DNA of 64,000 bases from a virus. A program made the position numbers and the translations under genes. This document shows, piece by piece, positions 14,184 through 58,135 of the stretch; within the stretch, counting starts at the first letter, position 1; every line of letters begins with the position of its first letter. The notes under the pieces are model-generated. The model saw only the letters and a program-made list of their open reading frames with translations. It searched no databases and was not told where the DNA came from. The DNA lies in IMG/VR virus record IMGVR_UViG_3300035698_012128, positions 30,672 to 94,671 of that record; one strand, written 5' to 3'.

Positions 14184-14257
14184 GGTCTGGTAGCTCAGAT
14201 GTGTAGAGCAGCGGCTTTTAACCCCGTTGGTCGTGGGTTCGAGTCCCACACAGACCA
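14184..14257 (+). tRNA. tRNA with UUA or UUU anticodon (ochre suppressor or Lys)
   Basis: Acceptor GGTCTGG/ACAGACC, D stem GCTC/GAGC, T arm GTGGG-TTCGAGT-CCCAC. The anticodon arm GCGGC-TTTTAAC-CCCGT places UUA at positions 34-36 by length and gives four of five stem pairs. UUA would read UAA. Shifting by one gives UUU (Lys) with only three stem pairs. The call is ambiguous. Confidence 0.6.
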
Positions 14258-14312
14258 CTAAAATAAATTTTTTAACCATAAACATATAATATAATGAAAA
14301 AAGGATAAAGTA

Positions 14313-19882: not shown

Positions 19883-19883
19883 T

Positions 19884-20768: not shown

Positions 20769-20774
20769 AATAAT

Positions 20775-22433
20775 ATGAGTAAAACAACAATAGTAACCTC
20801 TTTATATGATTTAAATAGAGGTGATTTAGATAATAATTTTAAACGCTCATTCGATGATTATGTAAATAATTTTAAAAAATTACTACTAGGTGATTATAAT
20901 TTATATATATATTTGGATCAAAAACTAGCAGATGAATTATCATTAATATTAACAAGTCCTAATATCTATCTGAAGATAATGGAGTTAGATGAATTGAAAG
21001 AATGGTTTGGGTTTTACAATGATGTTAATGAAATTAGAAAGAAAAATGATTGGAGATCACAGGCCGATTGGTTAAAAGATTCACCCCAAGCTAATTTAGA
21101 TATGTACAATCCATTAGTTATGTCTAAAATGTTTATGTTGAATGATGCTAGTATATATAATCCTCACCAATCTGAATATTTTTATTGGATAGATGCGGGT
21201 ATAAGTAATACTGTTCATCCCGGTTATTTCTATCACGATAAGGTATTTGGTAACTTAGAAAGTTATATTAAAAGTATAGACAATAAATTTACTTTTATAT
21301 CATATCCTTATGAAAACGATGTTGAAATTCATGGTTTCGAAAGAAAAGGTATGAATATATTCTGCCAATCAGACGATATAAATTATGTGTGTAGAGGAGG
21401 GTTTTTTGGTGGTAGGAAAAAAGAAATTAATGAATTAAATAGTCTGTATTGGAGTTTATTAAGTGATACTTTAGATAAAGGATATATGGGTACTGAGGAA
21501 AGTATATTTACCATAATGTCTTATTTATCACCCCATAACATACATAGATTTGAAATAAGTGGGGATGGTTTGGTTTGGCCCTTCTTCGAGTATATTAAAG
21601 ATAAAGAATGGGAAGATGTAAAAGTTGAGCATCCGTATTTGTATATATTAACTTATAATTCTCCAAATCAACTTCAAACATTACTTAATAGTTGTATTGA
21701 TTATGATCCTCAATTAATGGATATGAACTTGGTATTAATCAATAATTCAACAGATAGAAGTTTAGATGATAAATATAATGACATATGCGTAGCTTATGGT
21801 ATCGAAGAAATAAAATACGATAATATTGGGATATGTGGTGGACGGCAAGCAGTAGCCGAACATTTCAATAATACAGGATCTGATTTTTATTTGTTTTTTG
21901 AGGATGACATGAATTTTTACATAGAAAAGCCACCAAAACCATGTAAACTCGGGTTTAATAGATCGACACCTAATATTTTAAATCGCATATTAGAGATAAT
22001 GATCAAAGAAAAATATGACTTTATTAAATTATCATTTACCGAATTTTTTGGTGATAACTCGGTTCAATGGGCCTGGTATAACATACCTCAAGAAGTAAGA
22101 GATAAATATTTTCCTAATCAAAATAAATTACCTGAACATGGTTTGTCTCCAAATCCTCCATTAGTAGAATTTGATAATATTAATTTTATACATGATTTGG
22201 GGTATGTGAGTGGAGATGTTTACTATGATAATTGGCCTGCTATGTTTTCGAGAGAGGGGAACAGAAAAGTATTTTTAGAAACAAAGTGGGCACATCCATT
22301 CGAACAAACATGGATGTCTTATGTATTTCAGAAACAACAAGAAGGTGAAATAAATTCAGCAGTATTATTATTATCACCAATAGAACATGATAGATTTGAA
22401 CACTATCCTGCAGATGAAAGAAGAGAAAATTAA
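20775..22433 (+). CDS. HtrL/YibB-like and GT2 fusion glycosyltransferase
   Basis: 552 residues with two parts. Residues about 1-275 repeat the HtrL/YibB pattern (TIVTSLYDLNRGD; YFYWIDAGISN; CRGGFFGGRKKE). Residues about 285-550 form a GT2-like domain (YLYILTYNSPNQLQTLLNSC; FLFFEDDMNFYIEK with the acidic metal site). The fusion implies two sequential transfers by one protein. Acceptor unknown. Confidence 0.7.
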   Translation: MSKTTIVTSLYDLNRGDLDNNFKRSFDDYVNNFKKLLLGDYNLYIYLDQKLADELSLILTSPNIYLKIMELDELKEWFGFYNDVNEIRKKNDWRSQADWLKDSPQANLDMYNPLVMSKMFMLNDASIYNPHQSEYFYWIDAGISNTVHPGYFYHDKVFGNLESYIKSIDNKFTFISYPYENDVEIHGFERKGMNIFCQSDDINYVCRGGFFGGRKKEINELNSLYWSLLSDTLDKGYMGTEESIFTIMSYLSPHNIHRFEISGDGLVWPFFEYIKDKEWEDVKVEHPYLYILTYNSPNQLQTLLNSCIDYDPQLMDMNLVLINNSTDRSLDDKYNDICVAYGIEEIKYDNIGICGGRQAVAEHFNNTGSDFYLFFEDDMNFYIEKPPKPCKLGFNRSTPNILNRILEIMIKEKYDFIKLSFTEFFGDNSVQWAWYNIPQEVRDKYFPNQNKLPEHGLSPNPPLVEFDNINFIHDLGYVSGDVYYDNWPAMFSREGNRKVFLETKWAHPFEQTWMSYVFQKQQEGEINSAVLLLSPIEHDRFEHYPADERREN

Positions 22434-24431: not shown

Positions 24432-25308
24432 AAGATATATTATAACAAGTGATACAGATTCATTGTTCTTCGAATTGAAGGACTTGATATTGAAACAATG
24501 TCCTGATATTGATATTAATTCAAGGGAAGATGTTATACCCATAGCACTAGATATAACAGATAAATATCAGAAAAAAACTATACCATTTTTAGAGGAACTG
24601 TCTAGTTCTTTATTTAACGTACCTAATAGCTATTTTGAATTAAAACAAGAAGTGATATTAGAACGTGGTTATTTTTCAAAGAAACGTAGATATGCCCAAT
24701 TTATAGTTAATAAAGAAGGCATACCAACAGAAGAATTAGATATGAAGGGGTTAGATTTAATGAAGTCTAATTTCCCTAAAATATTTAAGGATTTTGGGGA
24801 ACAATTATTAATTGATGTATTATATGGTAAAACAAAATTATATGTTGATAAAAAAGTACTAGCGTTTAAATCATCTATTAAAACAATGGATTGGAAAGAA
24901 CTACTCAAACCCACAGGATTAAAACATTTGGGTAAGTATATAGCATCCCCTCCCGAACCAGGTACTATATTTACTAAATTAAAAAGTAGATGTCCTATCA
25001 ACACACGATCCGCTATATACTATAATGATTTAATGAAATTTCACGGTTTAAACAAAATGTATCCATTATTTAATATAGGTGATAAAATGTATATTAGTTA
25101 TTTAAAAAATAATGAGTATGGTATTAAATGTATAGGATTTAATGGTTTTGATGATCCACCATTAATAAAGGAATTAATTAGTAAATATATTGACAAAGAT
25201 GAATTATTTGATAGTGCATTGAAGAATAAAATTGAGGGATTGTATAGTGATTTAAGCTGGGGTGTACCTGTATGGAACGAGAGATTTAATAAATTTTTTA
25301 AATTTTAA
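24421..25308 (+). CDS. Family B DNA polymerase, C-terminal part (gp43B-like)
   Basis: 295 residues. YIITSDTDSLFF (about 6-17) is polymerase motif C with the two catalytic aspartates, and GYFSKKRRYAQFIV (about 81) is the KKRY-type motif; thumb follows. It must assemble with the product of 22451-24238 to give an active enzyme. A promoter motif follows the gene. Confidence 0.9.
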   Translation: MENKRYIITSDTDSLFFELKDLILKQCPDIDINSREDVIPIALDITDKYQKKTIPFLEELSSSLFNVPNSYFELKQEVILERGYFSKKRRYAQFIVNKEGIPTEELDMKGLDLMKSNFPKIFKDFGEQLLIDVLYGKTKLYVDKKVLAFKSSIKTMDWKELLKPTGLKHLGKYIASPPEPGTIFTKLKSRCPINTRSAIYYNDLMKFHGLNKMYPLFNIGDKMYISYLKNNEYGIKCIGFNGFDDPPLIKELISKYIDKDELFDSALKNKIEGLYSDLSWGVPVWNERFNKFFKF

Positions 25309-25341
25309 AATTTTCTTTATTATATTTAATTATATTAAAAA
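25307..25341 (+). promoter_or_regulatory. Phage promoter motif
   Basis: AAAATTTTCTTTATTATATT then TAATTATATTAAAAA, ahead of the sliding-clamp unit. Confidence 0.5.
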
Positions 25342-25356
25342 AATAAAAACAAGATT

Positions 25357-25557
25357 ATGGAATTAGAGATAGTAAATAGTGAAGATAAAAAAAGTGATGA
25401 AACTAGGTCAAATAAATCTTTAATGGAAATGGTGTATATTAAAGGTATATCAACTCAAATAGACGAAATGAAATTCCCAAGAATTTCTAATTTAAATAGT
25501 CTATTAAATCAAATAGGTTATGAAATAAAAGAAATCAAGGTAAATGAAAGTAAATAG
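25357..25557 (+). CDS. Small hypothetical protein
   Basis: 66 residues, polar, no motif. It overlaps the clamp gene by 14 bases and is probably co-translated with it. Confidence 0.55.
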   Translation: MELEIVNSEDKKSDETRSNKSLMEMVYIKGISTQIDEMKFPRISNLNSLLNQIGYEIKEIKVNESK

Positions 25558-26308
25558 TAACCAATTATTATCAGTAATTAATAAATGCCATCTCAATGGA
25601 TTAACAACAAAATTTAAGATTAAAATCAAAGATAATGTATTATCCATTAATTTTCTCACAAATAATAATGAGATTGTTGGGGAGGTGATATGGAACGGTG
25701 TGCCATTAGATGATGCTATTTTGGGTATCGTTAATAGCGATGTTTTATTAAGTATATTAAAATCTGTAAAGGCTGATGGGTTAGTTGATATAACATACAA
25801 ATCTGTAAATAATAAGATTAATAAATTAGTATTAGCATCTGATATATTTAAAGCCTCATATGTTACAGCCGATGTGCTATTAATTAAAGATTCACCTGAA
25901 CCTATGGTTCCTGAAGATTATGATTTAGAGTGTGGGTTAAGTGAAGAATTTATTAATAATTATCATAGTATATCAAAAATTATAGGTTCAGGAGAAGAAG
26001 ATTTATGGGTCAGTGTAAAGGATAATAATCTGACATTTGCTTTAGGAGCCGATAATGCTTATTCTAATAATATAAATATTTCATTTCCTGTTAACTGTGC
26101 TAACATACCAAAAATATTATTCCCGTCTCTGCAAGTTAGGAATATATTTAATTCTAATAGTGATTTAAACCCTCCATTACTCACATTGTATGGTGATGGG
26201 TTGTTAGTATTAAATTATCAACTAGGGGATCTAGAATCAGGAGAAGACGTAAATAGTTCCATTTCATCACTGTATTACATATTAGCTAAAGAAGTTATTA
26301 ACGATTAA
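25544..26308 (+). CDS. Sliding clamp, gp45-like
   Basis: 254 residues. The order of strands and helices and the two-domain length (T4 gp45 is 228) fit a DNA sliding clamp, e.g. VNSDVLLSILKSVKADGLVD and the later EFINNYHSISKIIG helix before a second beta domain. Sequence similarity is modest. Placement between polymerase and clamp loader genes supports the call. The C-terminal tail differs from the gp45 polymerase-binding peptide. Confidence 0.6.
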   Translation: MKVNSNQLLSVINKCHLNGLTTKFKIKIKDNVLSINFLTNNNEIVGEVIWNGVPLDDAILGIVNSDVLLSILKSVKADGLVDITYKSVNNKINKLVLASDIFKASYVTADVLLIKDSPEPMVPEDYDLECGLSEEFINNYHSISKIIGSGEEDLWVSVKDNNLTFALGADNAYSNNINISFPVNCANIPKILFPSLQVRNIFNSNSDLNPPLLTLYGDGLLVLNYQLGDLESGEDVNSSISSLYYILAKEVIND

Positions 26309-26318
26309 TTTTTATTAT

Positions 26319-26350
26319 AAAAGTTTCTTTGTATATTAAAGTATAATAAG
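26319..26350 (+). promoter_or_regulatory. Phage promoter motif (consensus copy)
   Basis: AAAAGTTTCTTTGTATATTA then AAGTATAATAAG, with a leader TAACAAACAAACATTAA shared with the copies at 50603 and 51923. Confidence 0.7.
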
Positions 26351-26380
26351 ATAATAACAAACAAACATTAAACAAAAAAA

Positions 26381-26713
26381 ATGGATAATCAAGAAAGCAA
26401 TTTACCAAAAAGAAGAGGAAGAAAAGCAGGTGATACAAAAATCATTTCTAAAATCATTGATCCTTCTTTAGCACCGTATGAAATACATATCGAAGAAAAA
26501 GGATTTAATGTAGTCGACAGTAGAAAAGGAGATAGTAATGGGTTTGTAGGTGCTTTCACTAGTGTTGAGTATGCTGTTAAGAAAATACTAGATTTTAATG
26601 TAGCTAACAAAGGTAAAACATATACTATGACCGAGTATATTAGAGAAATTAAAGAAGTAAATAAACAATTAACAAGGATAATAAATGGGGAGGAAATTAA
26701 AAGCACGGAATAA
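26381..26713 (+). CDS. Hypothetical protein with basic N-terminus
   Basis: 110 residues. KRRGRKAGD near the start looks AT-hook-like; the rest is globular (YEIHIEEKGFNVVDSRKGDSNGF). It overlaps the groES-like gene by 29 bases. Could bind DNA; not assigned. Confidence 0.5.
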   Translation: MDNQESNLPKRRGRKAGDTKIISKIIDPSLAPYEIHIEEKGFNVVDSRKGDSNGFVGAFTSVEYAVKKILDFNVANKGKTYTMTEYIREIKEVNKQLTRIINGEEIKSTE

Positions 26714-26963
26714 TAATGTAATATGTACTACATTAGATCCGAAAAAATTTAAAAAAGTTGGTGCTATCATAGTTCCGGATATGGGGAGGGAAAAACCCAT
26801 GTTCGGAGTTATAGTATCCAAAGGTGAGTTAGTGACTAATTTTAGTGTGGGGGAGGAAATATTGTTACCTAAGATAGGAACCATGAGGTTCGAATTTGAA
26901 AGTCAAGAATATTACTCTATCGAGGCCATAAATATAACAGGAGTAATAACAGAAGAAAAATGA
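26685..26963 (+). CDS. groES: GroES-like co-chaperonin
   Basis: 92 residues, the usual GroES length (about 97). VGAIIVPDMGREKPMFGVIVSKG (about 27) covers the mobile-loop region, and VGEEILLPKIGT is the family barrel strand. It overlaps the groEL-like gene by 4 bases. Together they would form a phage-specific folding chamber, as T4 gp31 does with host GroEL. Confidence 0.75.
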   Translation: MGRKLKARNNNVICTTLDPKKFKKVGAIIVPDMGREKPMFGVIVSKGELVTNFSVGEEILLPKIGTMRFEFESQEYYSIEAINITGVITEEK

Positions 26964-28555
26964 ATAAAATAAAAAAAGGGAATGACGCCCGTAAGTCAAT
27001 TATTGATGGTGTAAAAATAGTTAGTGATGCTGTAGCGGCAACACTAGGACCCTCAGGTAGAAATGTTTTATATATGGATAACGGAGAGGTTAAGTCTACT
27101 AAAGACGGGGTGACTGTGGCTAAAAATATTCATGGGGTTGGCGATCCTTCCACGGATATGGGGATTAATTTAATTAAACAAGCTTCTATTAAAACATTAA
27201 ACGCAGTTGGTGATGGTACTACAACTACCACATTGATTACTAAAATGTTGGTAGAAGGTGGATTTAATAATTTTGATATTAAAAATAATCCCAATGAGAT
27301 AAAAAACAAACTCCAAGAACAAGCCCAAAAAGTAGATGATTATTTAGTATCAAAAACAACACCAATTAAGAATAATGCACAAATTAAAAATATAGCTACT
27401 ATTTCAGCTAATGGAGATGCATTTATTGGTGAGTTGATTACTCAAGCCATTACTAATGTTGGAATAGACGGGGTAGTAAATGTAGAAATTTCAGATTCTG
27501 GAGAGACTCATTTGGAAAATGTTGAAGGTATAGTCTTAGAAGATGGATTTAAATCCATATATTTTGTTACTGACAACGAAAGTATGATGTGTAAATATAA
27601 TGATCCTATAATATTATTATATAATGGGAAACTAAATTCAGTAGAATCATTATTACCATTAATGAACCATTGCTCTGAATTAGCACGACCGTTAGTAATT
27701 ATAGCAGAAGATATTGAAGGCGAAGCATTATCTACAATGTTGATGAATAAAGCTAAAAATATATTACCATCAGTAGCTATTAAATTATCAGATTATGGTG
27801 ATAGTAGAGCGTTGGTGATGGAAGATTTAGCGATTATGACTGGGGGGATGGTAGTAGATCCTAAAAGAGGACATGAATTATCAGATTTTGATGTCACCTG
27901 GTTAGGTAGTTCTCGAAGTATTAACATTGACAAGAAAAGTACAATAATTATTGATCCTAAGGGTGGTAAAGAAGCTATAATTGATAGGCAAAATCAATTG
28001 AAGACATTATTGGATAATTCTGCATCAGGTTATATGACTGAAAAACTACAAGAACGTATTGGAAAGTTGTGTGGGGGTATTAGTATCATACATATATGCG
28101 GTGATAGTAGGATTCAAATGAATGAAACTAAAGATAGAGTAGATGATGCATTACACGCAACAAAAGCGGCTATTGATGAAGGTATATCCGTAGGTGGTGG
28201 TATCGCTTTATTTAATGCTGCTCGTGTGATAGATATTATTGAAGAAGATTCAATTATGTATTCGGCTTTATTGTCTCCTTTTAGGCAAATACTTACTAAT
28301 GCTGGTTATACAGAAACAAGCATTAACTTTTACATAGGAGAACTTACTTCCCACCCAAGCCTTGATGTGGGTGTTGATGTTATTAATGGTGGTTTGATTG
28401 ATTATATGGACCGAGGTATTGTAGATCCTACTAAAGTGATAAGAACGGCATTAAAGAATGCGGTATCAATTGCTACTACAGTATTACTTACTGAATGTAT
28501 CATAGTGACCGAAGAATCAGAAGCACCAAACAATCTACCAGAATTTAATTTATAA
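26960..28555 (+). CDS. groEL: GroEL-like chaperonin
   Basis: 531 residues, near full length for HSP60 (about 545). VAATLGPSGRNVLY (about 26), STKDGVTVAKNI, and NAVGDGTTTTTLITKML (about 79-95) are the ATP-binding landmarks, including GDGTT; the C-terminal half has ATKAAIDEGISVGGG. The usual C-terminal GGM repeat is absent. A phage-encoded GroEL/GroES pair suggests that some virion or replication protein needs a tailored chaperonin. Confidence 0.9.
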   Translation: MNKIKKGNDARKSIIDGVKIVSDAVAATLGPSGRNVLYMDNGEVKSTKDGVTVAKNIHGVGDPSTDMGINLIKQASIKTLNAVGDGTTTTTLITKMLVEGGFNNFDIKNNPNEIKNKLQEQAQKVDDYLVSKTTPIKNNAQIKNIATISANGDAFIGELITQAITNVGIDGVVNVEISDSGETHLENVEGIVLEDGFKSIYFVTDNESMMCKYNDPIILLYNGKLNSVESLLPLMNHCSELARPLVIIAEDIEGEALSTMLMNKAKNILPSVAIKLSDYGDSRALVMEDLAIMTGGMVVDPKRGHELSDFDVTWLGSSRSINIDKKSTIIIDPKGGKEAIIDRQNQLKTLLDNSASGYMTEKLQERIGKLCGGISIIHICGDSRIQMNETKDRVDDALHATKAAIDEGISVGGGIALFNAARVIDIIEEDSIMYSALLSPFRQILTNAGYTETSINFYIGELTSHPSLDVGVDVINGGLIDYMDRGIVDPTKVIRTALKNAVSIATTVLLTECIIVTEESEAPNNLPEFNL

Positions 28556-31200: not shown

Positions 31201-32358
31201 ATGTCTAAAATAAATATAACTGTAGGCTTAGCTTATGGTGATGAGGGTAAAGGTATGGTTACTAACTCTCATTTCAATGATGGTTCTAATCATTTATCAA
31301 AAATTGGGGTTAGATTTAGTGGCGGTCATCAAGCAGGCCATAATGTTGTATTACCTAATGGTATAAAACACATCCATTCCATTTTTGCTAGTGGTGCTAT
31401 TTCAGGATATGAAAGTTACCTTACAGAGCATTGTGTATTTTGCCCGTTATCTCTACAAATAGAAAGCGCGATAATAAAAAGTAAGATTGGGAAGAAACCG
31501 AAAATATCAATTCACCCATTCGCTATGTTGGTAACTCCATTTGATATTGTATTTAACAAATTTAAGGAAAAATATCATAATATTCAAACATCTTGTGGTC
31601 AAGGTATAGGTGCAACCATGGAAAGGAATATACAGTCACATTATAGTTTGAGAGCGGTAGACGTATTACACCCACACGTTTTTCTAAGGAAGTTATCTAA
31701 TATTCAAAAATACTATAGTGATAAAATGGAAGAGTATGGAACCACTTTACATGAATGGATTAATGAATTTAATATGCTTGAAGAGATTGATGAATTCAAG
31801 AGCAAATATATGAACGATTGGCAACTAAGAGACTATAGTATGTTAAGCGGATATAGCCAAATAAACTTTGAAGGTAGTCAAGGATTAATGTTAGATCAGA
31901 ATTTTGGTATATTTCCTGAGGTGACATATGCCAATACTACTATCAAAAACGCATTGGAAGTACTTGATCATATGCATTCAGTAGATAGTTTAAAAGTATG
32001 GAACTGTAGTAGAGCATATACGACTAGACATGGTGATGGTTACATTAATGGTCATAGAGATATTGAAGTAGGAAATGTAAGTGAAACAAACCAAGATAAC
32101 GAAAATCAAGGAAAATTTAAAGTGCGACCATTAGACTATGATGTATTAAATTACGCACTCAAGGTAAATGGTACTTTACTAAAGGGATGGGTAGCTGGTC
32201 ATAAAGAATTGGCTCATGGTCAATGCCCACTATTCCTGTTAGTTATAACATGCATGGATCACATTCCGATAGACACCTTTGATGAGTGTAAATTACCATC
32301 ATATGTTTTAGACGATATATATTATTCTGATAATCCTCTCAGTACAATATATAGATAA
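31201..32358 (+). CDS. PurA/PurZ-family adenylosuccinate synthetase
   Basis: 385 residues, shorter than bacterial PurA (about 430). GLAYGDEGKG (about 9-18) is the GTP loop and keeps the catalytic Asp that PurZ enzymes replace with Ser. GGHQAGHN (about 40) has the catalytic His. FEGSQGLMLD and YTTRHGDG match PurA landmarks. The guanine-binding TKLD is TCMD here, so nucleotide choice may differ. It joins aspartate to IMP (PurA), or possibly to a guanine nucleotide as PurZ does for 2-aminoadenine DNA. The retained Asp favours PurA chemistry. Confidence 0.75.
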   Translation: MSKINITVGLAYGDEGKGMVTNSHFNDGSNHLSKIGVRFSGGHQAGHNVVLPNGIKHIHSIFASGAISGYESYLTEHCVFCPLSLQIESAIIKSKIGKKPKISIHPFAMLVTPFDIVFNKFKEKYHNIQTSCGQGIGATMERNIQSHYSLRAVDVLHPHVFLRKLSNIQKYYSDKMEEYGTTLHEWINEFNMLEEIDEFKSKYMNDWQLRDYSMLSGYSQINFEGSQGLMLDQNFGIFPEVTYANTTIKNALEVLDHMHSVDSLKVWNCSRAYTTRHGDGYINGHRDIEVGNVSETNQDNENQGKFKVRPLDYDVLNYALKVNGTLLKGWVAGHKELAHGQCPLFLLVITCMDHIPIDTFDECKLPSYVLDDIYYSDNPLSTIYR

Positions 32359-35377: not shown

Positions 35378-36760
35378 ATGAAGAAAGGTTATATAGAAAA
35401 AGATAAGAGAAAGACCATACTATTAATATGTGACGATATTAGAGATACCTCAGGTGTCGCCACTATGGCTCGTGAGATAGTAATGGGAACATGTCATGTA
35501 TTTAATTGGATTAATTTGGGGGGTAGAGTCCAACACGAAGATGTTGGTAAAGTATTAGACCTATCTAATGATTTATCAAGTATAAATAATATACCAGATG
35601 CTAATGTATTAATACACCCAGTTAATATGTTTGGTAATATTGAAGATGTGAGAAGAATATTAAATATACATAATGTTGATGGGATGATGATTTTCACTGA
35701 TCCAAGATATTTTGGTTATATATTTGATAACGAACGTGAAATTAGAAAAAGAGTACCATTAATGTATTACAACATATGGGACAACATGCCGGTACCTACA
35801 TATAATAAATCATTTTACAATTCATGTGATGCTTTATTCCCTATATCCAGACTAACAGAATATATTAATAATAGTTTGGCTACAAATGATCAAATAATAA
35901 AATATATACCTCATGGTGTTAATAAAGAAAATTTTAAACCACTACCTAATTCAGACGAATTAAAATTATTTCGTAAGAACATATTGCGAGGTCTAGACCC
36001 TGAATTTGTGTTACTATTTAATTCAAAAAACTTACTGAGAAAGAATGTTCCTAACACAATAAGATCATTCCATCACTTTCTTAATAATAATAGTCTTAGT
36101 GATGAAGAGAAAAAAAATTATGTACTATTATTACACACTAACCCTGCAGATAAAGCTGCAAGTAATTTAGTAGCAGTATGTGATTCAATATTTGGGGAAA
36201 AAGCATGGCTGGACAATATAGTATTCTCAACTAGTAAATTATCAGTTGAAGATATGAATATGATGTATAATATAGCTGATGCTACAATATTACTGTCAAA
36301 TACTGAAGGGTGGGGCTTATCAGTTAGCGAATCAATGATGGCTGACACGCCAGTTATTGCAACCGTAACAGGAGGGTTAAAAGATCAAATGGACCTCAAA
36401 TATATGGGTGATACTTTAACATTAAAACAAAATTCTGAATTAGGAGAATCAATTAACTTTGAATGGACTCAGCATGGTGGTTGGGTTATACCTATTAATC
36501 CCGTATCTCGTGTTATGGTTGGTTCTCAAGTCACACCATTCATATATGAAGATATAATAGACATTAAAAAGGTTTCCCTAGCAATAAGGGATATGTTTTA
36601 TTTTGTCAAAAACGAAAGCGTGGGTGGCAGTCGTGAGTGGTTATTAAGAAATGAAAGTAAACTAAATGCAGAAAGTATGTGTAAAGGTTTTATCGAAGGT
36701 ATAAATGAAACATTAGATAAATTCACACCCCGTTCTAATTTTGACATGATTAAAATATAA
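35378..36760 (+). CDS. GT4-family glycosyltransferase
   Basis: 460 residues, GT-B type. TEGWGLSVSESMMADTPVIA (about 307-326) is the donor-binding E-x7-E motif. RDTSGVATMAREIV near the N-terminus and FPISRLTEYI then YIPHGVNKENFKP are typical of family 4 retaining enzymes. First gene of the second sugar-transfer cluster. Donor and acceptor unknown. Confidence 0.8.
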   Translation: MKKGYIEKDKRKTILLICDDIRDTSGVATMAREIVMGTCHVFNWINLGGRVQHEDVGKVLDLSNDLSSINNIPDANVLIHPVNMFGNIEDVRRILNIHNVDGMMIFTDPRYFGYIFDNEREIRKRVPLMYYNIWDNMPVPTYNKSFYNSCDALFPISRLTEYINNSLATNDQIIKYIPHGVNKENFKPLPNSDELKLFRKNILRGLDPEFVLLFNSKNLLRKNVPNTIRSFHHFLNNNSLSDEEKKNYVLLLHTNPADKAASNLVAVCDSIFGEKAWLDNIVFSTSKLSVEDMNMMYNIADATILLSNTEGWGLSVSESMMADTPVIATVTGGLKDQMDLKYMGDTLTLKQNSELGESINFEWTQHGGWVIPINPVSRVMVGSQVTPFIYEDIIDIKKVSLAIRDMFYFVKNESVGGSREWLLRNESKLNAESMCKGFIEGINETLDKFTPRSNFDMIKI

Positions 36761-36763
36761 AAA

Positions 36764-38017
36764 ATGAAGAAAAGTTGTATAGTAAGTTGTCCTATAGATT
36801 GTTATGCCGGTTATGGTGCCCGATCTAGAGATTTTGTTAAATCATTAATATATCAACGCGGTCATGAGTGGGATATAAAAATCCTCCCTCAGCGGTGGGG
36901 TAATACATCACAAGGTTATTTAGTTAACCATAACGAGCAAGATTTGCTGAGTAGAGTATTAAGAAAAATGGAGTATCAACCTGATATTTGGTTTCAAATC
37001 ACAATACCTGAAGAATTTAATCCCGTAGGTAAACACTTAAATGTAGGAGTAACCGCGGGAATTGAAACTGATACATTCCCACCTAGTTGGTTTGAGGGTA
37101 TGAATAAAATGGATGTAAACATAGTATCATCTAATCATTCTAAAGACATGATACCTAAAGGTGCTGTTACTAAACCCGTTACTGTGTTATTCGAGGGTGT
37201 TGATTTAAGTAAATACCACGTGTCATTTAATAAACATGACACTGAACTGAATAAATCACTAGATACCATTAAAGAAAAGTTCTGCTTCCTATTTGTAGGG
37301 CAGTGGTTACCTGGTATAGAAGGTGAAGATAGGAAGAATATACCATTAACTGTAAGATTATTTTTGGAATCGTTCAAAGATAAAAAAGTACAACCCGCTC
37401 TTATATTAAAAACTAATATGAAGAATCCATCAGTTGGTGATGCAAATAATATTAAAGATATAATTGAAAGGATAAAATCAACCATAAGGTATAGTAAATC
37501 ATTACCTAATGTATACCACATCAATGGTAATTTGGATGATAGTAGTATGAACGAATTGTATAATCATATTAAAGTCAAAGCGATGATTAATTTAACCAAA
37601 GGTGAAGGTTTTGGGAGACCATTATTAGAATTTAGTACCTTAGGTAAACCTATAATAACTACCAATTACTCGGGACATACCGATTTTATAAAACCAACAC
37701 ATAATACGTTGTTGGATGGTAAAATGACTAAGGTTCATCCATCAGCTTCTAATAAATGGATATTACCTGAATCTAAGTGGTTTTCAGTTGACCCATCCCA
37801 AACTTTTAATGTACTGTGTGATATATTTACAGATTGTAAAAGCTATAAGAAAAAATCAAATCTCAGTAAGAGTTTTGTAATACAGAATTTTTCTTTACAC
37901 CATATGGGAAGAATGTTAGATAAAATTTTAAAAATATATACTCCAGAAATACCAAATGAAGTAATAATGGATATGAGTAAATTACAACTTAAAAGGGAAA
38001 TACCTATAGTAAAATGA
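36764..38017 (+). CDS. GT4-family glycosyltransferase
   Basis: 417 residues, GT-B type. GEGFGRPLLEFSTLGKPIIT (about 284-303) carries the E-x7-E motif, preceded by KAMINLTK. VLFEGVDLSKY matches the family linker. Three bases after the previous GT4 gene and overlapping the next by 4. The two GT4 proteins may act in sequence. Confidence 0.8.
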   Translation: MKKSCIVSCPIDCYAGYGARSRDFVKSLIYQRGHEWDIKILPQRWGNTSQGYLVNHNEQDLLSRVLRKMEYQPDIWFQITIPEEFNPVGKHLNVGVTAGIETDTFPPSWFEGMNKMDVNIVSSNHSKDMIPKGAVTKPVTVLFEGVDLSKYHVSFNKHDTELNKSLDTIKEKFCFLFVGQWLPGIEGEDRKNIPLTVRLFLESFKDKKVQPALILKTNMKNPSVGDANNIKDIIERIKSTIRYSKSLPNVYHINGNLDDSSMNELYNHIKVKAMINLTKGEGFGRPLLEFSTLGKPIITTNYSGHTDFIKPTHNTLLDGKMTKVHPSASNKWILPESKWFSVDPSQTFNVLCDIFTDCKSYKKKSNLSKSFVIQNFSLHHMGRMLDKILKIYTPEIPNEVIMDMSKLQLKREIPIVK

Positions 38018-46770: not shown

Positions 46771-47178
46771 ATGTCAAAAAAGAAAACAAAAAGTTATTTA
46801 ATTGAAGTTGAGAATGAAATAAAAAATATTAAAAAACATATACCTCTTGACCGTAGGTTACAACTAAATTTTGATACATTAAATCCTGCATTCCAATCTG
46901 ACTGTATATATGGACAAATGTATGGGGATTGTAATAATAATGAAGCTGTCCAAGCCATACGGATATGTGGGTCTACTAGTAAATCATTTACCTTATTGTC
47001 TAGACCTATAAGTGATATAGAAGAAATACCCCCCAGAACATATCCTTACTCTCACAGCTTCCTAGAACTTGCTAGTTTTAGTTACCTGGAACATTATATC
47101 TATAATTCCCCACAGGACAATAATAACATTATAGATTTTCTGAAAGGAAATACTGATTTTCTTATTTTAAGTAAATAG
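46771..47178 (+). CDS. Hypothetical protein, paralogue of 48404-48832
   Basis: 135 residues. CIYGQMYGDC (about 47), AIRICGSTSKSF, YPYSHSFLEL and LEHYIYNSP recur in the gene at 48404. The two copies flank an unrelated gene. Conserved cysteines and tyrosines suggest a common fold. Function unknown. Confidence 0.6.
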   Translation: MSKKKTKSYLIEVENEIKNIKKHIPLDRRLQLNFDTLNPAFQSDCIYGQMYGDCNNNEAVQAIRICGSTSKSFTLLSRPISDIEEIPPRTYPYSHSFLELASFSYLEHYIYNSPQDNNNIIDFLKGNTDFLILSK

Positions 47179-48403: not shown

Positions 48404-48832
48404 ATGAGTGAAGTAAACAAAATATCTAACACATCGATACCTGACACATACATAGATGATGTTACTAATGAAATTAATAATATTAAACAGTATGTTCCCT
48501 TGGTAAATAGGAAATATCTGGATATTGACCGTCTTAATCCAAATCACACCAGCAAATGTATTTATGGATTAATGTATTTATATTGTTACTCAGGCGAAGC
48601 AGAGGATGCCATTAGAAAATGTTGTAAAGCACAATATTCATTCTCACAACCAGTATATGATAGTGCATTAAAATCTTATCCTGCTAGGGATAGGAGTTTA
48701 TTTTCTAATTCATTTTCATGTTTGGAACATTATATAGTCGCTTTCCCATCACAAAATAAAGATATTATTAGTTACATAAAAGATGAATTAGATGAGCTAC
48801 CTGAATTGACTATGGAAATTCTCATAAAATAG
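48404..48832 (+). CDS. Hypothetical protein, paralogue of 46771-47178
   Basis: 142 residues. Shares CIYGLMY, AIRKC, YSFSQPV, SFSCLEHYIVAFPS with the gene at 46771, and an extra N-terminal stretch. Likely a duplicated accessory gene. Unknown function. Confidence 0.6.
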   Translation: MSEVNKISNTSIPDTYIDDVTNEINNIKQYVPLVNRKYLDIDRLNPNHTSKCIYGLMYLYCYSGEAEDAIRKCCKAQYSFSQPVYDSALKSYPARDRSLFSNSFSCLEHYIVAFPSQNKDIISYIKDELDELPELTMEILIK

Positions 48833-49838: not shown

Positions 49839-50168
49839 ATGAAGATCAAGAACATATTCCCTTTAATTACAATTATGTCACAAGATACAATAAATAAATC
49901 AAACATTATGGATCATAATGATTGTATCGGTCACCACCACCTCAAAAAAGGTCTGAGTGACAATGGTGTAATTGGTGTTGAAGATTGGGAAATTAAGTGG
50001 GGTGTATCTGCGGGGTACATAAGAGATATAAATACTGGTGAGATCATGTGTCTTCAATCCCAATATGTGGATGTAGAAACAAATAAAATAAAACAGTATA
50101 ACATGCTAAAGGCTAAAGCGGGAGATGATGTTATATTTGATACGCTATTTAAAACGATTAAACATTGA
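49839..50168 (+). CDS. Tandem paralogue family member 1 (divergent)
   Basis: 109 residues. NIFPLITIMSQDTI, then CIGHHHL and WEIKWGVSAGYI follow the order of the family signature at 50965-53852 (FPVTVxxTQ, CIGAxxL, W...G). The most divergent copy and the first of nine. Function unknown. Confidence 0.6.
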   Translation: MKIKNIFPLITIMSQDTINKSNIMDHNDCIGHHHLKKGLSDNGVIGVEDWEIKWGVSAGYIRDINTGEIMCLQSQYVDVETNKIKQYNMLKAKAGDDVIFDTLFKTIKH

Positions 50169-50169
50169 T

Positions 50170-50382
50170 ATGCCCTACACATTGACAACTATAGTTACAA
50201 ATAAAATATTTGGTAACGAAATACTATTAAATACAGAAGCCCAAGTAATGCATGAAGCATTGCTAAGACAAGGTGATACAAGACACAGTACCGAAATGTC
50301 TGCTAATTTTAACCAAGCTGTCAAAAACGAAGATACTATGTCAATATTAAAAAAGAAAGTATTAAAATTAAGATTGATATGA
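50170..50382 (+). CDS. Small hypothetical protein
   Basis: Start at 50170 (MPYTLTTIV), one base after the previous stop. 70 residues, helical C-terminus. No motif. Confidence 0.5.
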   Translation: MPYTLTTIVTNKIFGNEILLNTEAQVMHEALLRQGDTRHSTEMSANFNQAVKNEDTMSILKKKVLKLRLI

Positions 50383-50582
50383 AAAATAAAGAAAACACAC
50401 ATAGGCCATCTCGTAAGAATGCCGGGAGGTATATGATATTTATGACCTTAATAAGTGGTTTATTGGGTGGATTATTTTGGTACAATTTAAACTTTGAGGT
50501 GGCTTGTTTTACTTTACTCTTAGTGATTATTATGTTATTGTTATCAATCAGATATAACCAATATCTGATAGCATCCTTATAG
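50379..50582 (+). CDS. Small two-span membrane protein
   Basis: 67 residues. A basic N-terminus (KNKENTHRPSRKNAGR) precedes two hydrophobic segments (MTLISGLLGGLFW; FTLLLVIIMLLL). Overlaps the gene before by 4 bases. Confidence 0.5.
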   Translation: MKNKENTHRPSRKNAGRYMIFMTLISGLLGGLFWYNLNFEVACFTLLLVIIMLLLSIRYNQYLIASL

Positions 50583-50596
50583 ATTTAGGGTCTTTT
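50575..50596 (+). repeat. Half-terminator repeat
   Basis: TCCTTATAGATTTAGGGTCT and TT repeats the 3' half of the terminator at 48321-48354 (TTATAGATTTAGGGTCTTTT) without its 5' arm. It then runs into the same promoter sequence. Looks like a recombination joint. Confidence 0.45.
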
Positions 50597-50602
50597 TATT
50601 AT

Positions 50603-50634
50603 AAAAGTTTCTTTGTATATTAAAGTATAATAAG
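50603..50634 (+). promoter_or_regulatory. Phage promoter motif (consensus copy)
   Basis: AAAAGTTTCTTTGTATATTA then AAGTATAATAAG. The leader TAACAAACAAACATTAA is shared with 26319 and 51923. Confidence 0.7.
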
Positions 50635-50656
50635 ATAGTAACAAACAAACATTAAG

Positions 50657-50953
50657 ATGAGAAAATACAAAGAATTAGTCAACAATCCACCCGAAATAAG
50701 TGTACCAAAAGTTTGTAGAGAAGTAATATTTGGTGTAGTGTTTGAGATAGGTGATATCACAAATTTAATCAGATTTAAGAAAAATGTAGAAGGTGATTTT
50801 GTGATAAGTGGTGGTGGTTTATTATTTAAAAATTATAGAGGTAATTATGAAAGATTCGAACTTGAATGGGCCGCTGATGAGGGTGAGTGGGATTATGTTA
50901 TGAGATTAATTAATTCAGGACCTATGCAAATCGATTACGTTAGATTTAGATAA
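50657..50953 (+). CDS. Hypothetical protein heading the paralogue unit
   Basis: 98 residues, beta-rich (GVVFEIGDITNLIRFKKNVEGDF). First gene after a strong promoter. It lacks the paralogue signature. Unknown role. Confidence 0.55.
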   Translation: MRKYKELVNNPPEISVPKVCREVIFGVVFEIGDITNLIRFKKNVEGDFVISGGGLLFKNYRGNYERFELEWAADEGEWDYVMRLINSGPMQIDYVRFR

Positions 50954-50964
50954 AAACAATTAAC

Positions 50965-51273
50965 ATGGAAGGTTTAAAACCAATACAACATCTGTTTCCC
51001 GTTACTGTAAATGTAACACAAGAAATGATAGATAAAGGTAAAGCGAACATTACATCACCCTCCCATTGCATTGGGGCAATTGCTGTAAGAAAAGTAATAA
51101 CAGATAATAGATATGTATCATGGGCTAATAGTTGTGGATGTATAGAAACAAGAGATAGTTGGCCACACTATTATTTCCAGATACAATCATTTGATGCTAT
51201 TACCCATCTACCTGTAGTAATGGAACACATTATATCACCTCAAAACATAATATTAAAAGAATGGAAGATTTAA
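50965..51273 (+). CDS. Tandem paralogue family member 2
   Basis: 102 residues. LFPVTVNVTQEMIDKGK, CIGAIAVRKVI and WANSCGCIETRD give the family signature. Overlaps the next copy by 13 bases. Confidence 0.65.
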   Translation: MEGLKPIQHLFPVTVNVTQEMIDKGKANITSPSHCIGAIAVRKVITDNRYVSWANSCGCIETRDSWPHYYFQIQSFDAITHLPVVMEHIISPQNIILKEWKI

Positions 51274-51572
51274 AACCAATACAACATCTGTTTCCAGCTA
51301 CAATAGAAATAACACAAGAAGTGTTGGATAAAGGGAGAGAAAACTTAATGGACTGCAACCATTGTATTGGAGTGGTCGCCTTAAGAACAATAATAACAGA
51401 TGAAAGGTATATATCATGGGCTGGATATAATGGAAGTATAAGGCAATCAGTAAGTTTGAATATTGAGTACTTCAATGTACAATCATTTAATGAGGATGGT
51501 ACTGAATTAATATATATGGAATCAATTAGAGAACCACAAAAAATAGTAATAAAACCATGGAAAAAATACTAA
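51261..51572 (+). CDS. Tandem paralogue family member 3
   Basis: 103 residues. Begins DLKPIQHLFPATIEITQE, nearly as member 2; CIGVVALRTII and WAGYNGSIRQS follow. Members 2 and 3 look like a recent duplication. Confidence 0.65.
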   Translation: MEDLKPIQHLFPATIEITQEVLDKGRENLMDCNHCIGVVALRTIITDERYISWAGYNGSIRQSVSLNIEYFNVQSFNEDGTELIYMESIREPQKIVIKPWKKY

Positions 51573-51889
51573 AAAATCTATTCCCAGTTACAGTACAAAT
51601 AACTCAAGAACAAATAGATAGAGGTAGAGTACACATATATTCTACTACAAGATGTGTTGGTGCTTTAGTCCTTAAATCAATTGTTGGGGATAGAGCTGAT
51701 GTATCATTTGGGTGTAGTTCAGGTACTGTTATAAAATTAGATGGTTCTGACTGTTGGACGGTTAATGTGAAGAAGGATGGTATTAAATTCGACATGATGG
51801 AAGTGTTAAAACCAACTACAGTAACATTCGAACTTTATCAAACTGATATGGGAAGAGTAGACACATTTTCAACACACTTTACACAATAG
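51557..51889 (+). CDS. Tandem paralogue family member 4
   Basis: 110 residues. LFPVTVQITQEQIDRGR, CVGALVLKSIV and FGCSSGTVIK; C-terminal PTTVTFEL matches the PxxVxF end of the family. Confidence 0.65.
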   Translation: MEKILKNLFPVTVQITQEQIDRGRVHIYSTTRCVGALVLKSIVGDRADVSFGCSSGTVIKLDGSDCWTVNVKKDGIKFDMMEVLKPTTVTFELYQTDMGRVDTFSTHFTQ

Positions 51890-51922
51890 TGGATCAAATT
51901 TAGATATAATAGTTTTTATTAT

Positions 51923-51954
51923 AAAAGTTTCTTTGTATATTAAAGTATAATAAG
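51923..51954 (+). promoter_or_regulatory. Phage promoter motif (consensus copy)
   Basis: Identical core to the copy at 50603, including the leader, indicating duplication of the promoter segment within the array. Confidence 0.7.
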
Positions 51955-51976
51955 ATAGTAACAAACAAACATTAAA

Positions 51977-52285
51977 GTGGAGGAAAAAACAAAACAAGAA
52001 CTTGAAATTAGTAAACATTTTCCTGCTACCGTAGAGGTAACACAAGAAATGATTGATAAAGCAGACATTTATCATAAAGAAAAATGTATAGGAGCTATTG
52101 TACTAAAGAGCATATTGAAAGATGTAGTAGGAGAAGTACAAGTAAGATGGGGTAGTTATTATGGAAGTGTAGAATTCAACAACCGTGGTTATCTTCAATT
52201 TGAATCATTTAATGAAAGTGGAAAAATAAGGGGGATGATGAATATAAAACACCCCACAACAGTTGTAATAAAAATAAATTACTAA
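51977..52285 (+). CDS. Tandem paralogue family member 5
   Basis: 102 residues with a GTG start at 51977. HFPATVEVTQEMIDKAD, CIGAIVLKSIL and RWGSYYGSVEF; ends HPTTVVIKI. Confidence 0.65.
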   Translation: MEEKTKQELEISKHFPATVEVTQEMIDKADIYHKEKCIGAIVLKSILKDVVGEVQVRWGSYYGSVEFNNRGYLQFESFNESGKIRGMMNIKHPTTVVIKINY

Positions 52286-52307
52286 CATCATTAATCATAA
52301 AATAAAT

Positions 52308-52697
52308 ATGAAACATTCAACACAATTATTCAACCACCTCAAATCAATATATCATAACATTATTGCTAAACCTAAACCATTACGTCCACGTATAGTTGAT
52401 ATGTTCCCTGTTAAGGTTAGAATAACACAAGATATGCTTGACAATAATGATAGGTTAAATATCACAGATTGTGTTGGAGCTAAAGTACTAAAAAGTATAC
52501 TTGGTAATGATAGTAAATTAGATGGTAAGATCACACCATATTGGATTAATAATTCATGCGACATATACTTCGAATACCCCAATCATAATAAATCGAATGA
52601 AAAAGGTATTAATATAGGTTCGTTTGATGTAAATGATAGAGAGGTATATATATTAGATCTTCATGAACCATGTGATGTTATATTTAAAGTTATATGA
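52308..52697 (+). CDS. Tandem paralogue family member 6
   Basis: 129 residues. A basic helical N-terminus (about 1-30) precedes DMFPVKVRITQDMLDNND, CVGAKVLKSIL and the PCDVIFKV end. Confidence 0.65.
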   Translation: MKHSTQLFNHLKSIYHNIIAKPKPLRPRIVDMFPVKVRITQDMLDNNDRLNITDCVGAKVLKSILGNDSKLDGKITPYWINNSCDIYFEYPNHNKSNEKGINIGSFDVNDREVYILDLHEPCDVIFKVI

Positions 52698-52739
52698 ATG
52701 TGAATCCAAACACATAATATTATTTCAGAAAAAAAAACA

Positions 52740-53099
52740 ATGAACATACCACAAATACTCAAATCAATAAGATACATAACCAGACACAGCACCAGACAAG
52801 ACATGATGGATAAATTCCCATTAGTCATAAATGTCACCCAGAAAATGATCGACGCTGGTAGGGGAAAAAATATAATACAAAGTACGAGATGTGTAGGTGC
52901 TCAGGCGTTGAAAAGTAAGTTAAGTGGATGGGGTGGTTGGCATATAAGATGGGGTGATAATCAGGGTCATCTAATATATAGATCCGACCCATTTCATCCT
53001 AAAAAATATATAACATTAGGATCTGACACCAATATGATGATGGTTAAAAAACCATGTACTGTTACATTTACTCTTAGCACACCCTCAAATTTAAATTAA
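52740..53099 (+). CDS. Tandem paralogue family member 7
   Basis: 119 residues. Basic N-terminal helix, then DKFPLVINVTQKMIDAGR, CVGAQALKSKL, IRWGDNQGHLI and PCTVTFTL. Confidence 0.65.
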   Translation: MNIPQILKSIRYITRHSTRQDMMDKFPLVINVTQKMIDAGRGKNIIQSTRCVGAQALKSKLSGWGGWHIRWGDNQGHLIYRSDPFHPKKYITLGSDTNMMMVKKPCTVTFTLSTPSNLN

Positions 53100-53459
53100 A
53101 TGAAACACCTTGTAAAGTATATTAAATCATTATTAAACATTAAACCTTCATTAAACACCCAAAGGCAAAATATAATCGATATGTTCCCAGTTACGGTTCA
53201 TATAACGCAGGAAATGATCGATAGGAGTAATGTGCGGGATTTTAAAAATTGTATAGGAGCCATTGTTGTGAATGAAGTTATTAAAGATGTGAAAGGTTGG
53301 TCATGTGGGTGGTTTGATATTTTTGGAGATGTGAGTTGTGATTTTGGATCGAGTGAATATGACATACGTATTGAATCTAAAAATGTGGGTGGAGATGAGG
53401 AGTTTTTGGGTATGATAAGTGTTAAAAAACCATGTGATGTTATGTTAGTAGTCGAGTAA
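53100..53459 (+). CDS. Tandem paralogue family member 8
   Basis: 119 residues, directly after member 7 without a gap. QRQNIIDMFPVTVHITQEM, CIGAIVVNEVI, WFDIFGDVS and PCDVMLVV. Very close to member 9. Confidence 0.65.
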   Translation: MKHLVKYIKSLLNIKPSLNTQRQNIIDMFPVTVHITQEMIDRSNVRDFKNCIGAIVVNEVIKDVKGWSCGWFDIFGDVSCDFGSSEYDIRIESKNVGGDEEFLGMISVKKPCDVMLVVE

Positions 53460-53480
53460 CCAAATTAAATATTAAATTAT

Positions 53481-53852
53481 ATGAAACGCATAATAACATA
53501 TTTTAAATCATTATTGCACATTGATCATCCATTAAATAACGAAATGATTTCATTGGATGTACAACGACAAAATATAGTTGATATGTTTCCGTGTACTGTA
53601 TATGTGACACAAAATATAATTGATAATAGTGTATTATGTAGCTCAAATAGATGTATAGGAGCTAAAGTTGTGAATGAATTCCTTAGAGATAATTTGGGGT
53701 GGAAGTGTCAGTGGATGCGTAGTTGTGGTACTATATATGATAGTACCAATTCTGTAAATATATATATTGAATCCAAAAATATGAGTGGATGGGCTATTGA
53801 TATGATGGATATTACCGAACCGTGTTATGTTATGTTAGATGTAACCGAGTAA
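53481..53852 (+). CDS. Tandem paralogue family member 9
   Basis: 123 residues. QRQNIVDMFPCTVYVTQN, CIGAKVVNEFL, WMRSCGTIY, IYIESKN and PCYVMLDV. Last copy before a 0.5-kb non-coding stretch. Confidence 0.65.
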   Translation: MKRIITYFKSLLHIDHPLNNEMISLDVQRQNIVDMFPCTVYVTQNIIDNSVLCSSNRCIGAKVVNEFLRDNLGWKCQWMRSCGTIYDSTNSVNIYIESKNMSGWAIDMMDITEPCYVMLDVTE

Positions 53853-54348
53853 GAGGTGTAAAGGTCGTTTATTTCCGTAAATCGAGCAAAGGTGCATGTA
53901 ATTGTAATGATTATGTGCATTTTTTGTTATAGTTTTTTTCATACAATGTGTGGAATATAATATAATGTGTGATATAATAAGGTAATGTGATTGTGTTAAT
54001 GTAATATAGTATATGGAATGGGTTAGGGTGTGGGTGTGGTGAGGTGTGGAGATCCGCATTAATTTTGTCCCCCCCACTCCTATCTATACACTCGTACTCG
54101 TATATACTTATTAGGACGTTGATAATAAACGTGCTATATTTTTTTATGGGGGTAGGCACCCACATGATGTGGAATTCCACATACAGATACCTACATCATG
54201 CATAATATTCTGTCACAACGTGAATAACCAGACGAAAATACTGTGAATTGAAACATTTGTGACGGTAAGGTTAAGAAGACATTCATCATATGCGTCATTT
54301 ACAGCAGAAGATTCTGTTACAATAATTTTTTTTATGCTTGTTTTTTTT
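53853..54348 (+). other. Non-coding region with palindrome and C-rich motif
   Basis: No convincing gene on either strand; minus-strand frames here are low-complexity. It holds T/G-rich DNA, a CCCCCCC run near 54070, a CTCGTATATAC motif at 54097 also found twice near 57460-57493, and a 16-bp palindrome at 54167-54182. A regulatory, replication-origin or recombination site is possible. Confidence 0.45.
54167..54182 (+). repeat. 16-bp perfect palindrome
   Basis: ATGTGGAATTCCACAT, flanked by ATGATG and CATCATGC outside. Perfect symmetry in a non-coding stretch; candidate protein-binding site. Confidence 0.5.
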
Positions 54349-54380
54349 ATAGTTTCTTTGTATATTAAAGTATAATAAAT
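54349..54380 (+). promoter_or_regulatory. Phage promoter motif (consensus copy)
   Basis: ATAGTTTCTTTGTATATTAA then AGTATAATAAAT, seven bases before the next ATG. Confidence 0.7.
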
Positions 54381-57747: not shown

Positions 57748-57948
57748 CTAAGGCACTCCACATATTTTAGCTAAATTAGATAGAATTACTCTGTTTAAGA
57801 TGCAATAACCATATATATTAGGTCCACTATGGTCAAGCATTCTATATTCGAGGTAAGGGCATTTAATCCACATCTTCATTTCAGAATTACTATATCCACA
57901 CTCATCTCCTATCGGTATAATTGTTAAATCACGTTTTACTAGTTTCAT
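57748..57948 (-). CDS. Cysteine-rich small protein, paralogue pair
   Basis: Start taken at MKLVKRDLT (57948). 66 residues: KLVKRDLT, CPYLEYRML, YGYCIL and LAKICGVP. The same order appears in the neighbouring gene at 57950. Four cysteines may bind metal. A tandem duplication. Confidence 0.55.
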   Translation of the reverse strand: MKLVKRDLTIIPIGDECGYSNSEMKMWIKCPYLEYRMLDHSGPNIYGYCILNRVILSNLAKICGVP

Positions 57949-57949
57949 A

Positions 57950-58135
57950 TTAAGGAGCGTCACATATTTTATCTAAATCCCAACCTACCACCCCACCACT
58001 TAAGTGGCAATCATAATTGTAGTTCCCTTTTTCTCTCCCTAAATAATGGCACTTATTATAGTCTTTACCTCTACCCTCTGTTGTACATTTAGGACCTTTC
58101 GGTATCCTGGTTAAATCACGTTTTACTAATTTCAT
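57950..58135 (-). CDS. Cysteine-rich small protein, paralogue pair
   Basis: 61 residues. KLVKRDLTRIPKGPKC, CHYLGREKG, YDCHLSG and LDKICDAP match the gene at 57748. Likely a small metal-binding protein; unknown role. Confidence 0.55.
   Translation of the reverse strand: MKLVKRDLTRIPKGPKCTTEGRGKDYNKCHYLGREKGNYNYDCHLSGGVVGWDLDKICDAP

Follow-up and report, generated by a model that had tools for sequence, protein, structure and literature searches.

A nine-copy array of small phage proteins, probably a divergent branch of the CPIALA superfamily

Why would a phage carry nine related genes for one kind of small protein, and what might these proteins do? The question is raised by nine related open reading frames (ORFs) encoding 102-129 amino acids (aa), which are located on the + strand at 49839-53852 of the window, i.e. 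the whole stretch of 64,000 nt analyzed here (positions 30,672-94,671 of the 94,671-bp IMG/VR record IMGVR_UViG_3300035698_012128). An earlier interpretation made from the letters alone, referred to below as the sequence-only reading, described them as tandem paralogues for which no known family came to mind. It proposed either inhibitors in an arms race with the host or a multi-subunit assembly. Profile comparisons and predicted structures indicated that the array is very probably a divergent branch of a superfamily of small phage proteins, named CPIALA here.

The homology of the nine copies proved to be real. When each copy was left out in turn, a hidden Markov model (HMM) built from the other eight recovered it among the 503 ORFs of the window (E = 4.8e-13 to 1.2e-28). 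Pairwise identity among the copies was 20-49%. No tenth copy was above threshold with the nine-sequence HMM in the window or in the rest of the 94,671-bp record. Similarity was higher between adjacent copies (34%) than between the others (29%; permutation p = 0.016), and the closest pairs were copies 2/3 (49%) and copies 8/9 (47%). The word tandem is appropriate for paralogous, neighbouring copies but not in the sense of strict contiguity, as copy 1 is followed by about 800 bp with three unrelated ORFs before copy 2 begins. The layout of the array is one plus eight, with copy 1 apart and copies 2-9 together.

The motifs noticed earlier (FPVTVxxTQ, CIGAxxL, W...G and a PxxVxx ending) varied between copies, with the invariant residues restricted to M1, F, P, Q, C and G. 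CIGA was replaced by CVGA in copies 4, 6 and 7, by CIGH in copy 1 and by CIGV in copy 3, while the W was absent from copy 4 and the terminal PxxV from copy 1. Identity within the array was highest in the N-terminal part (first strand 53%, first helix 54%, CIGA helix 47%) and reached 16-28% in the other domain segments. This difference suggests that the first part of the domain may be a conserved scaffold and that the strands and loops following in its second half may form a variable face, pointing to where a target-binding face may lie. Copies 6-9 possess an N-terminal extension of 20-30 residues, mostly basic, which is absent from copies 1-5. In copies 8 and 9 this segment was conserved at the DNA level (73 nt, 77%).

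To which proteins is the array related? Nothing was above threshold for the array in Pfam, NCBIfam, PHROGs or the sequences of solved structures. Searches of deposited phages by tblastn with copies 2, 4, 5 and 8 and with the protein of Tenacibaculum phage Larrie retrieved Larrie only, and no relatives were found in five viral scans with array or Larrie queries or in one bacterial genome scan. The Larrie protein UXQ88782.1 (ON950054.1 18253-18606) is a direct homologue (tblastn E = 4e-7 with copy 5, HMM E about 1e-17), the only one among deposited phages, and contains CIGA and a PTTVYLEV end. Its gene is found downstream of the terminase gene, in the company of other small hypothetical genes. 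In contrast to the array, it is present in a single copy, its protein is without the F of the FP motif, and Larrie is a siphovirus (Cbastvirus) and not T4-like.

A more distant relationship was detected with PHROG 19191, which includes Yvonnetastic gp183 (AMS02727.1, E = 8.6e-38; MIVEVTAEDIEKG...CPIALAI...FDYG...). In the library scan, two array copies matched the PHROG 19191 HMM below threshold (E = 0.1-0.14). Searched against the whole record (E = 0.0075), this HMM had matches at only two places, both of them array copies. A CPIALA profile was then assembled from 92 sequences of annotated phages and 59 viral contigs, with the array phage and Larrie excluded. When this profile was run on the 567 ORFs of the own record, the top eight matches were eight of the nine copies: copy 2 had E = 6.9e-6, the seven others E = 0.0013-0.85, and copy 1 was not listed. 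Reciprocally, the array HMM placed CPIALA members at ranks 1-9 among 8299 other ORFs. As the copies are mutually non-independent, the CPIALA ranking is strong but does not amount to eight separate tests. Alignment of the two profiles by hhalign gave a probability of 89-94% (E = 2e-6 to 9e-8) over the N-terminal 42 columns. The aligned region is exactly the [IV]xVT strand followed by the xxxI helix, which the array displays as TVxVTQEMID and in which the superfamily columns are V 92%, T 90% and I 94%. The Cys opening the second helix was present in 100% of 72 diverse superfamily members, in all nine copies and in Larrie.

The array differs from the superfamily in two motifs. In place of C-P-[IV]-A-x-A, it has C[IV]G for CP[IV] and keeps A-x-A only in copy 7 (CVGAQAL), and of FIxxFDxGxxVxPFxF with its regular third helix it retains only a trace (SFD/SFN, PxxV). 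Because of these two differences, the array is not a regular member of PHROG 19191, which is itself part of the CPIALA superfamily. Array proteins and CPIALA proteins (e.g. Yvonnetastic gp183 and Gibbles gp102, 104 and 105) are alike in size after removal of the extensions, in the strand-helix start and in element order, and the two groups share a nearly phage-only distribution, small-gene neighbourhoods and frequent tandem copies. They differ in that some array copies have N-terminal extensions, that no array copy alone reaches a confident PHROG E-value, and that the array has nine copies compared with at most four. To our knowledge this family relationship, which is well supported, is new, and the CPIALA motif string together with phage was not found in the literature searched. 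The absence of a known family held for named families but not for the remote, uncharacterised PHROG 19191; the array is neither a named family with an ordinary role nor categorically new.

The predicted structures agreed with this placement. An AlphaFold2 model of copy 5, obtained from the nine-sequence alignment, was confident (predicted local distance difference test, pLDDT, 90.8; predicted template modelling score, pTM, 0.83). It comprised helix 2-12, strand 17-21 (TVEVT), helix 23-28 and helix 38-46 just behind the invariant Cys37; after this CIGA helix came strands 55-59, 62-67, 71-78 and 94-101. Each array protein would accordingly form a small compact domain, with strand β1 (FPVTVxxTQ), the short helix α1, a helix starting from the invariant Cys (CIGAxxLK), and then three further strands before the closing one (PxxVxxx). 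The model of a CPIALA member (pLDDT 97.2) displayed the order β-α-α-β-β-β-α-β, compared with β-α-α-β-β-β-(short turn)-β for the array. An 11-residue helix of the CPIALA family corresponds to a strand and a 3-residue turn in the array model, and apart from this third helix the two are predicted to have the same fold. Neither model had a match in a fold search of the PDB. Foldseek against predicted viral structures yielded six matches at probability 0.97-1.0, followed by 0.69 and then 0.33 or less. Two of the six were from Gordonia phages Yvonnetastic and Volt, and the template modelling score of the matches at probability 0.97-1.0, normalised by query, was only 0.51-0.58.

The CPIALA superfamily was found on 59 viral contigs vs one contig of a bacterial metagenome-assembled genome, although the scan of bacterial genome contigs used one of two patterns and indicates rarity in bacteria without proving it. 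More than one copy was present in 14 of the 30 viral or genome records checked, with a maximum of four. Adjacent copies occurred in several unrelated phages, and the nine-copy array was the largest expansion seen. The nearest parallel, in an unrelated phage, was IMGVR_UViG_3300019458_000002 (171.7 kb), where four CPIALA genes are located within 1.3 kb and three of them are directly adjacent. In annotated phages the members were positioned among small hypothetical or DNA-metabolism genes and not among virion genes, and no neighbour gene was broadly shared at CPIALA loci. The patchy presence and the recurrent tandem copies fit an accessory gene under changing demand. A PADLOC scan, which covers defence and not counter-defence proteins and was restricted to the CPIALA relatives, gave one member matching PDC-M02B (E = 0.015) and nothing else.

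The patchy distribution extended to the relatives of the array phage. Judged from its genes the phage is T4-like, encoding a T4-type DNA polymerase, a clamp loader and a GroEL homologue, and a query with its UvsX-like recombinase matched hundreds of related contigs. Among T4-like relatives found via UvsX, many of which are fragments and four of which exceed 120 kb, the array family was detected in none of 39, in a search that recovered the own record and Larrie as positive control, and the CPIALA family in none of 33 of these relatives. There was no DNA similarity to deposited phages. A host among the Bacteroidota, probably the flavobacteria, is suggested because the sole deposited phage with a homologue infects Tenacibaculum.

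How is the array organized and expressed? The genes and promoter-like blocks of the array are all on the + strand. Copy 1 (49839-50168, 109 aa) is the most divergent (leave-one-out E = 4.8e-13). It is followed by a small unrelated ORF below the family HMM threshold (50170-50382; the ORF list gives a start at 50125, and 50170 is the in-frame ATG after copy 1), and by a 67-aa membrane-like ORF (50379-50582), not a family member, with weak similarity to SdpI below the cut-off (E = 0.022). A 63-bp block at 50593-50655, read as promoter plus leader, precedes the 98-aa non-family ORF (50657-50953), copy 2 (50965-51273, 102 aa), copy 3 (51261-51572, 103 aa) and copy 4 (51557-51889, 110 aa). Copies 2, 3 and 4 overlap by about 13-16 bp, the start of copy 3 overlapping the end of copy 2 by 13 bp and copy 4 overlapping the end of copy 3, and the 5' DNA of copy 3 is near-identical to that of copy 2. 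A second 63-bp block at 51913-51975 is located ahead of copy 5 (51977-52285, 102 aa, GTG start), copy 6 (52308-52697, 129 aa), copy 7 (52740-53099, 119 aa, isoelectric point 10.2), copy 8 (53100-53459, 119 aa) and copy 9 (53481-53852, 123 aa), which are separated by short gaps. After copy 9 there is a GT-rich stretch of about 490 nt (53853-54343) with no obvious + strand gene and no Rfam match, and then the next promoter-like sequence of the same class (54344-54379).

The two 63-bp blocks are 100% identical, though the genes behind them are unlike. Both contain TTTCTTTGTATATTAAAGTATAATAA, a promoter-like element that occurred at 22 sites in the record and at none in shuffled sequence. The 22 sites are spread over 31.9-91.8 kb of the record; the preceding 31.9 kb, where the tail and other virion genes are located, has none. 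Elements of the TTTCTTTGTATATTAAAGTATAATAA type may act as early or middle promoters, in which case the array could be read as two transcription units, one with the 98-aa gene and copies 2-4 and the other with copies 5-9, copy 1 standing apart. Being identical, the blocks could also plausibly serve as substrates for unequal recombination. Example sites of the element AAAGTTTCTTTGTATATTAAAGTATAATAA are at window positions 26315, 45875, 50599, 51919, 54344, 55603 and 56647. No sigma-70-type -35/-10 spacing was seen in it, and it is therefore possibly a phage-specific promoter, perhaps of a MotA-like middle type. The array itself is located in a region of small accessory or hypothetical genes outside the replication block. 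In the same accessory region, 46771-47178 and 48404-48832 of the window appeared by eye to be a paralogue pair with a shared CIYGxMY...EA...I core and LEHYI, and a third pair seems to be present on the - strand (57748-57963 and 57950-58135).

What, then, could be the function of these proteins? The explanation that we favour, although tentatively, is that they are non-virion accessory proteins most likely acting on host or defence proteins, i.e. a counter-host or counter-defence role. It is suggested by the small-gene setting, the promoter-like elements of the array, the absence from relatives, the conserved core with a variable face and the expansion by duplication. The proteins would be produced from the two putative transcription units, with copy 1 apart, under a promoter class of non-structural genes. 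The copies would have arisen by tandem duplication, probably aided by recombination between repeated DNA such as the 63-bp promoter-leader repeats. Their later divergence would most likely have fitted them to different binding partners among host or defence proteins. We infer both recombination as the driver of the expansion and host or defence proteins as the targets. In T4, recombination amplifies the toxin-inhibitor gene tifA in hosts with ToxIN (PMC9391042), and anti-defence genes of archaeal viruses have been identified by way of early genes under common regulation (PMC11065993). The likeness to TifA is one of working only: an accessory gene of a T4-like phage has its copy number raised by recombination-driven segmental amplification (PMC9391042). 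However, the TifA amplifications are recent and identical while the array copies are old and diverged, and no relation in sequence or structure is claimed.

An arms-race inhibitor, as put forward by the sequence-only reading, is compatible with the accessory region, the promoter-like elements, the patchy distribution, the recurrent tandem expansion and the scaffold with a variable half, but is not demonstrated by them. Nothing pointed to positive selection among the copies, since the ratio of nonsynonymous to synonymous substitution rates (dN/dS) in the array's own closest pairs was 0.3-0.9, i.e. below 1, though dS was near saturation and YN00 yielded no value for most pairs. DNA mimicry by an acidic protein was discarded for the array as a whole, as the net charge of the copies spans -4 to +11.

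Several findings weigh against the favoured interpretation and the family placement behind it. The profile match is confined mainly to the N-terminal ~42 columns, the array model does not have the C-terminal CPIALA helix (LPxxAxxFIxxFD) in this form, and the Larrie protein was not recovered by the CPIALA HMM. The first 31.9 kb of the record also holds replication genes without the promoter-like element, and its absence there is not virion-specific. No known function was found for any superfamily member, which leaves the target class guesswork; the two closest pairs have dN/dS below 1; and several CPIALA members near DNA-metabolism genes are also compatible with a role in replication or recombination.

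The last point leads to the most serious rival, a role as accessory factors of phage DNA replication, recombination or nucleotide metabolism, with the copies tuning different partners or doses. By eye, CPIALA members of several phages lie within a few kb of DNA polymerase A-, PD-(D/E)XK/Cas4-type exonuclease- or DUF932-like genes; a Cas4 family exonuclease is near the member in Guey18, and a MazG-like gene adjoins the member in Tunturi_3. However, these neighbours vary between phages and none is universal, and the genes around the array are small and hypothetical. A core replication factor would hardly be expected in nine diverged copies, and the sampled T4-like relatives manage without the family. 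We consider this role unlikely overall.

Less probable is that the paralogues are subunits of a hetero-oligomeric structure, either a virion part or an intracellular assembly. Nine related small β-rich domains in one array would suit such a structure, as would the overlap of copies 2-4; translationally coupled subunit genes often overlap. But the structural module has no promoter of this class, the relatives are not among virion genes in Gordonia phages, the Larrie gene has the setting described above, and no assembly subunit of solved structure was matched. As about half of the superfamily phages hold one copy, a hetero-oligomer is unlikely to be obligatory. The multi-subunit assembly proposed earlier is thus disfavoured, and a virion or multi-subunit role is unlikely in view of the genomic setting and the frequent single copy elsewhere.

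About equally improbable is selfish or neutral amplification, in which recombination between repeats makes copies that mostly drift and one or two are functional. The identical repeats flanking copies 2-4, the low identity between copies and the loss of PxxV in copy 1 speak for it. The nine intact reading frames, the invariant F, P, Q, C and G at 20-49% identity and the dN/dS below 1 in the closest pairs indicate purifying selection instead. Least probable is an envelope function of copies 6-9, for example in superinfection exclusion or in the control of lysis, with membrane attachment through the basic N-terminal segment (e.g. MKHLVKYIKSLLNIKP) and with the other copies cytosolic. The segment is found in four of nine copies, is conserved in DNA between copies 8 and 9 and is placed ahead of a domain that begins at FPVTV, but it could equally be a linker or processed leader and is mostly missing from the superfamily.

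Returning to the counter-host role, a wider and more doubtful extension is that phages may generally use the CPIALA/CIGA superfamily as a scaffold from which inhibitors of host or defence proteins are made. The β-α-α core would be kept, the variable sheet and loops would acquire new targets once a gene had been duplicated in tandem, and the nine-member set would be directed against different targets. A superfamily with a confidently predicted fold, no detectable solved relative, occurrence in many unrelated phages and repeated tandem duplication is an obvious group in which to search for new host-takeover or counter-defence proteins. The array offers ready-made sequence diversity, with each copy expressible and testable alone.

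Some further features of the phage were observed. Six consecutive genes just upstream of the window (24999-28089 of the record) share a near-identical start, M(K)KLxxILKEIxL, and then diverge; these starts look like a shared leader or capsid-targeting peptide on differing cargo proteins. The internal proteins of T4 have a comparable shared targeting peptide on different cargo. A link between these MKLxxILKEI leaders and the extension of copies 6-9 was not supported, as only copy 7 fits a loose pattern.

ARAGORN identified 25 tRNAs. One call (window 14184-14258) has the anticodon UUA, which would read UAA, and an unusual loop (CTTTTAACC); this could be either an ochre suppressor or a Lys-type tRNA that was misread. 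Of 77 long ORFs in the phage 53 end in TAA, more than in any other stop. QueC-like and QueE-like proteins (window 3524-4384 and 5936-6736, below the NCBIfam cut-offs) together with several glycosyltransferase-like proteins (18617-22430 and 35378-38014) suggest possible 7-deazaguanine and/or glycosylated DNA. A PurA/PurZ-like adenylosuccinate synthetase is encoded at 31201-32355 of the window, far under all curated cut-offs (106 of 402 bits).

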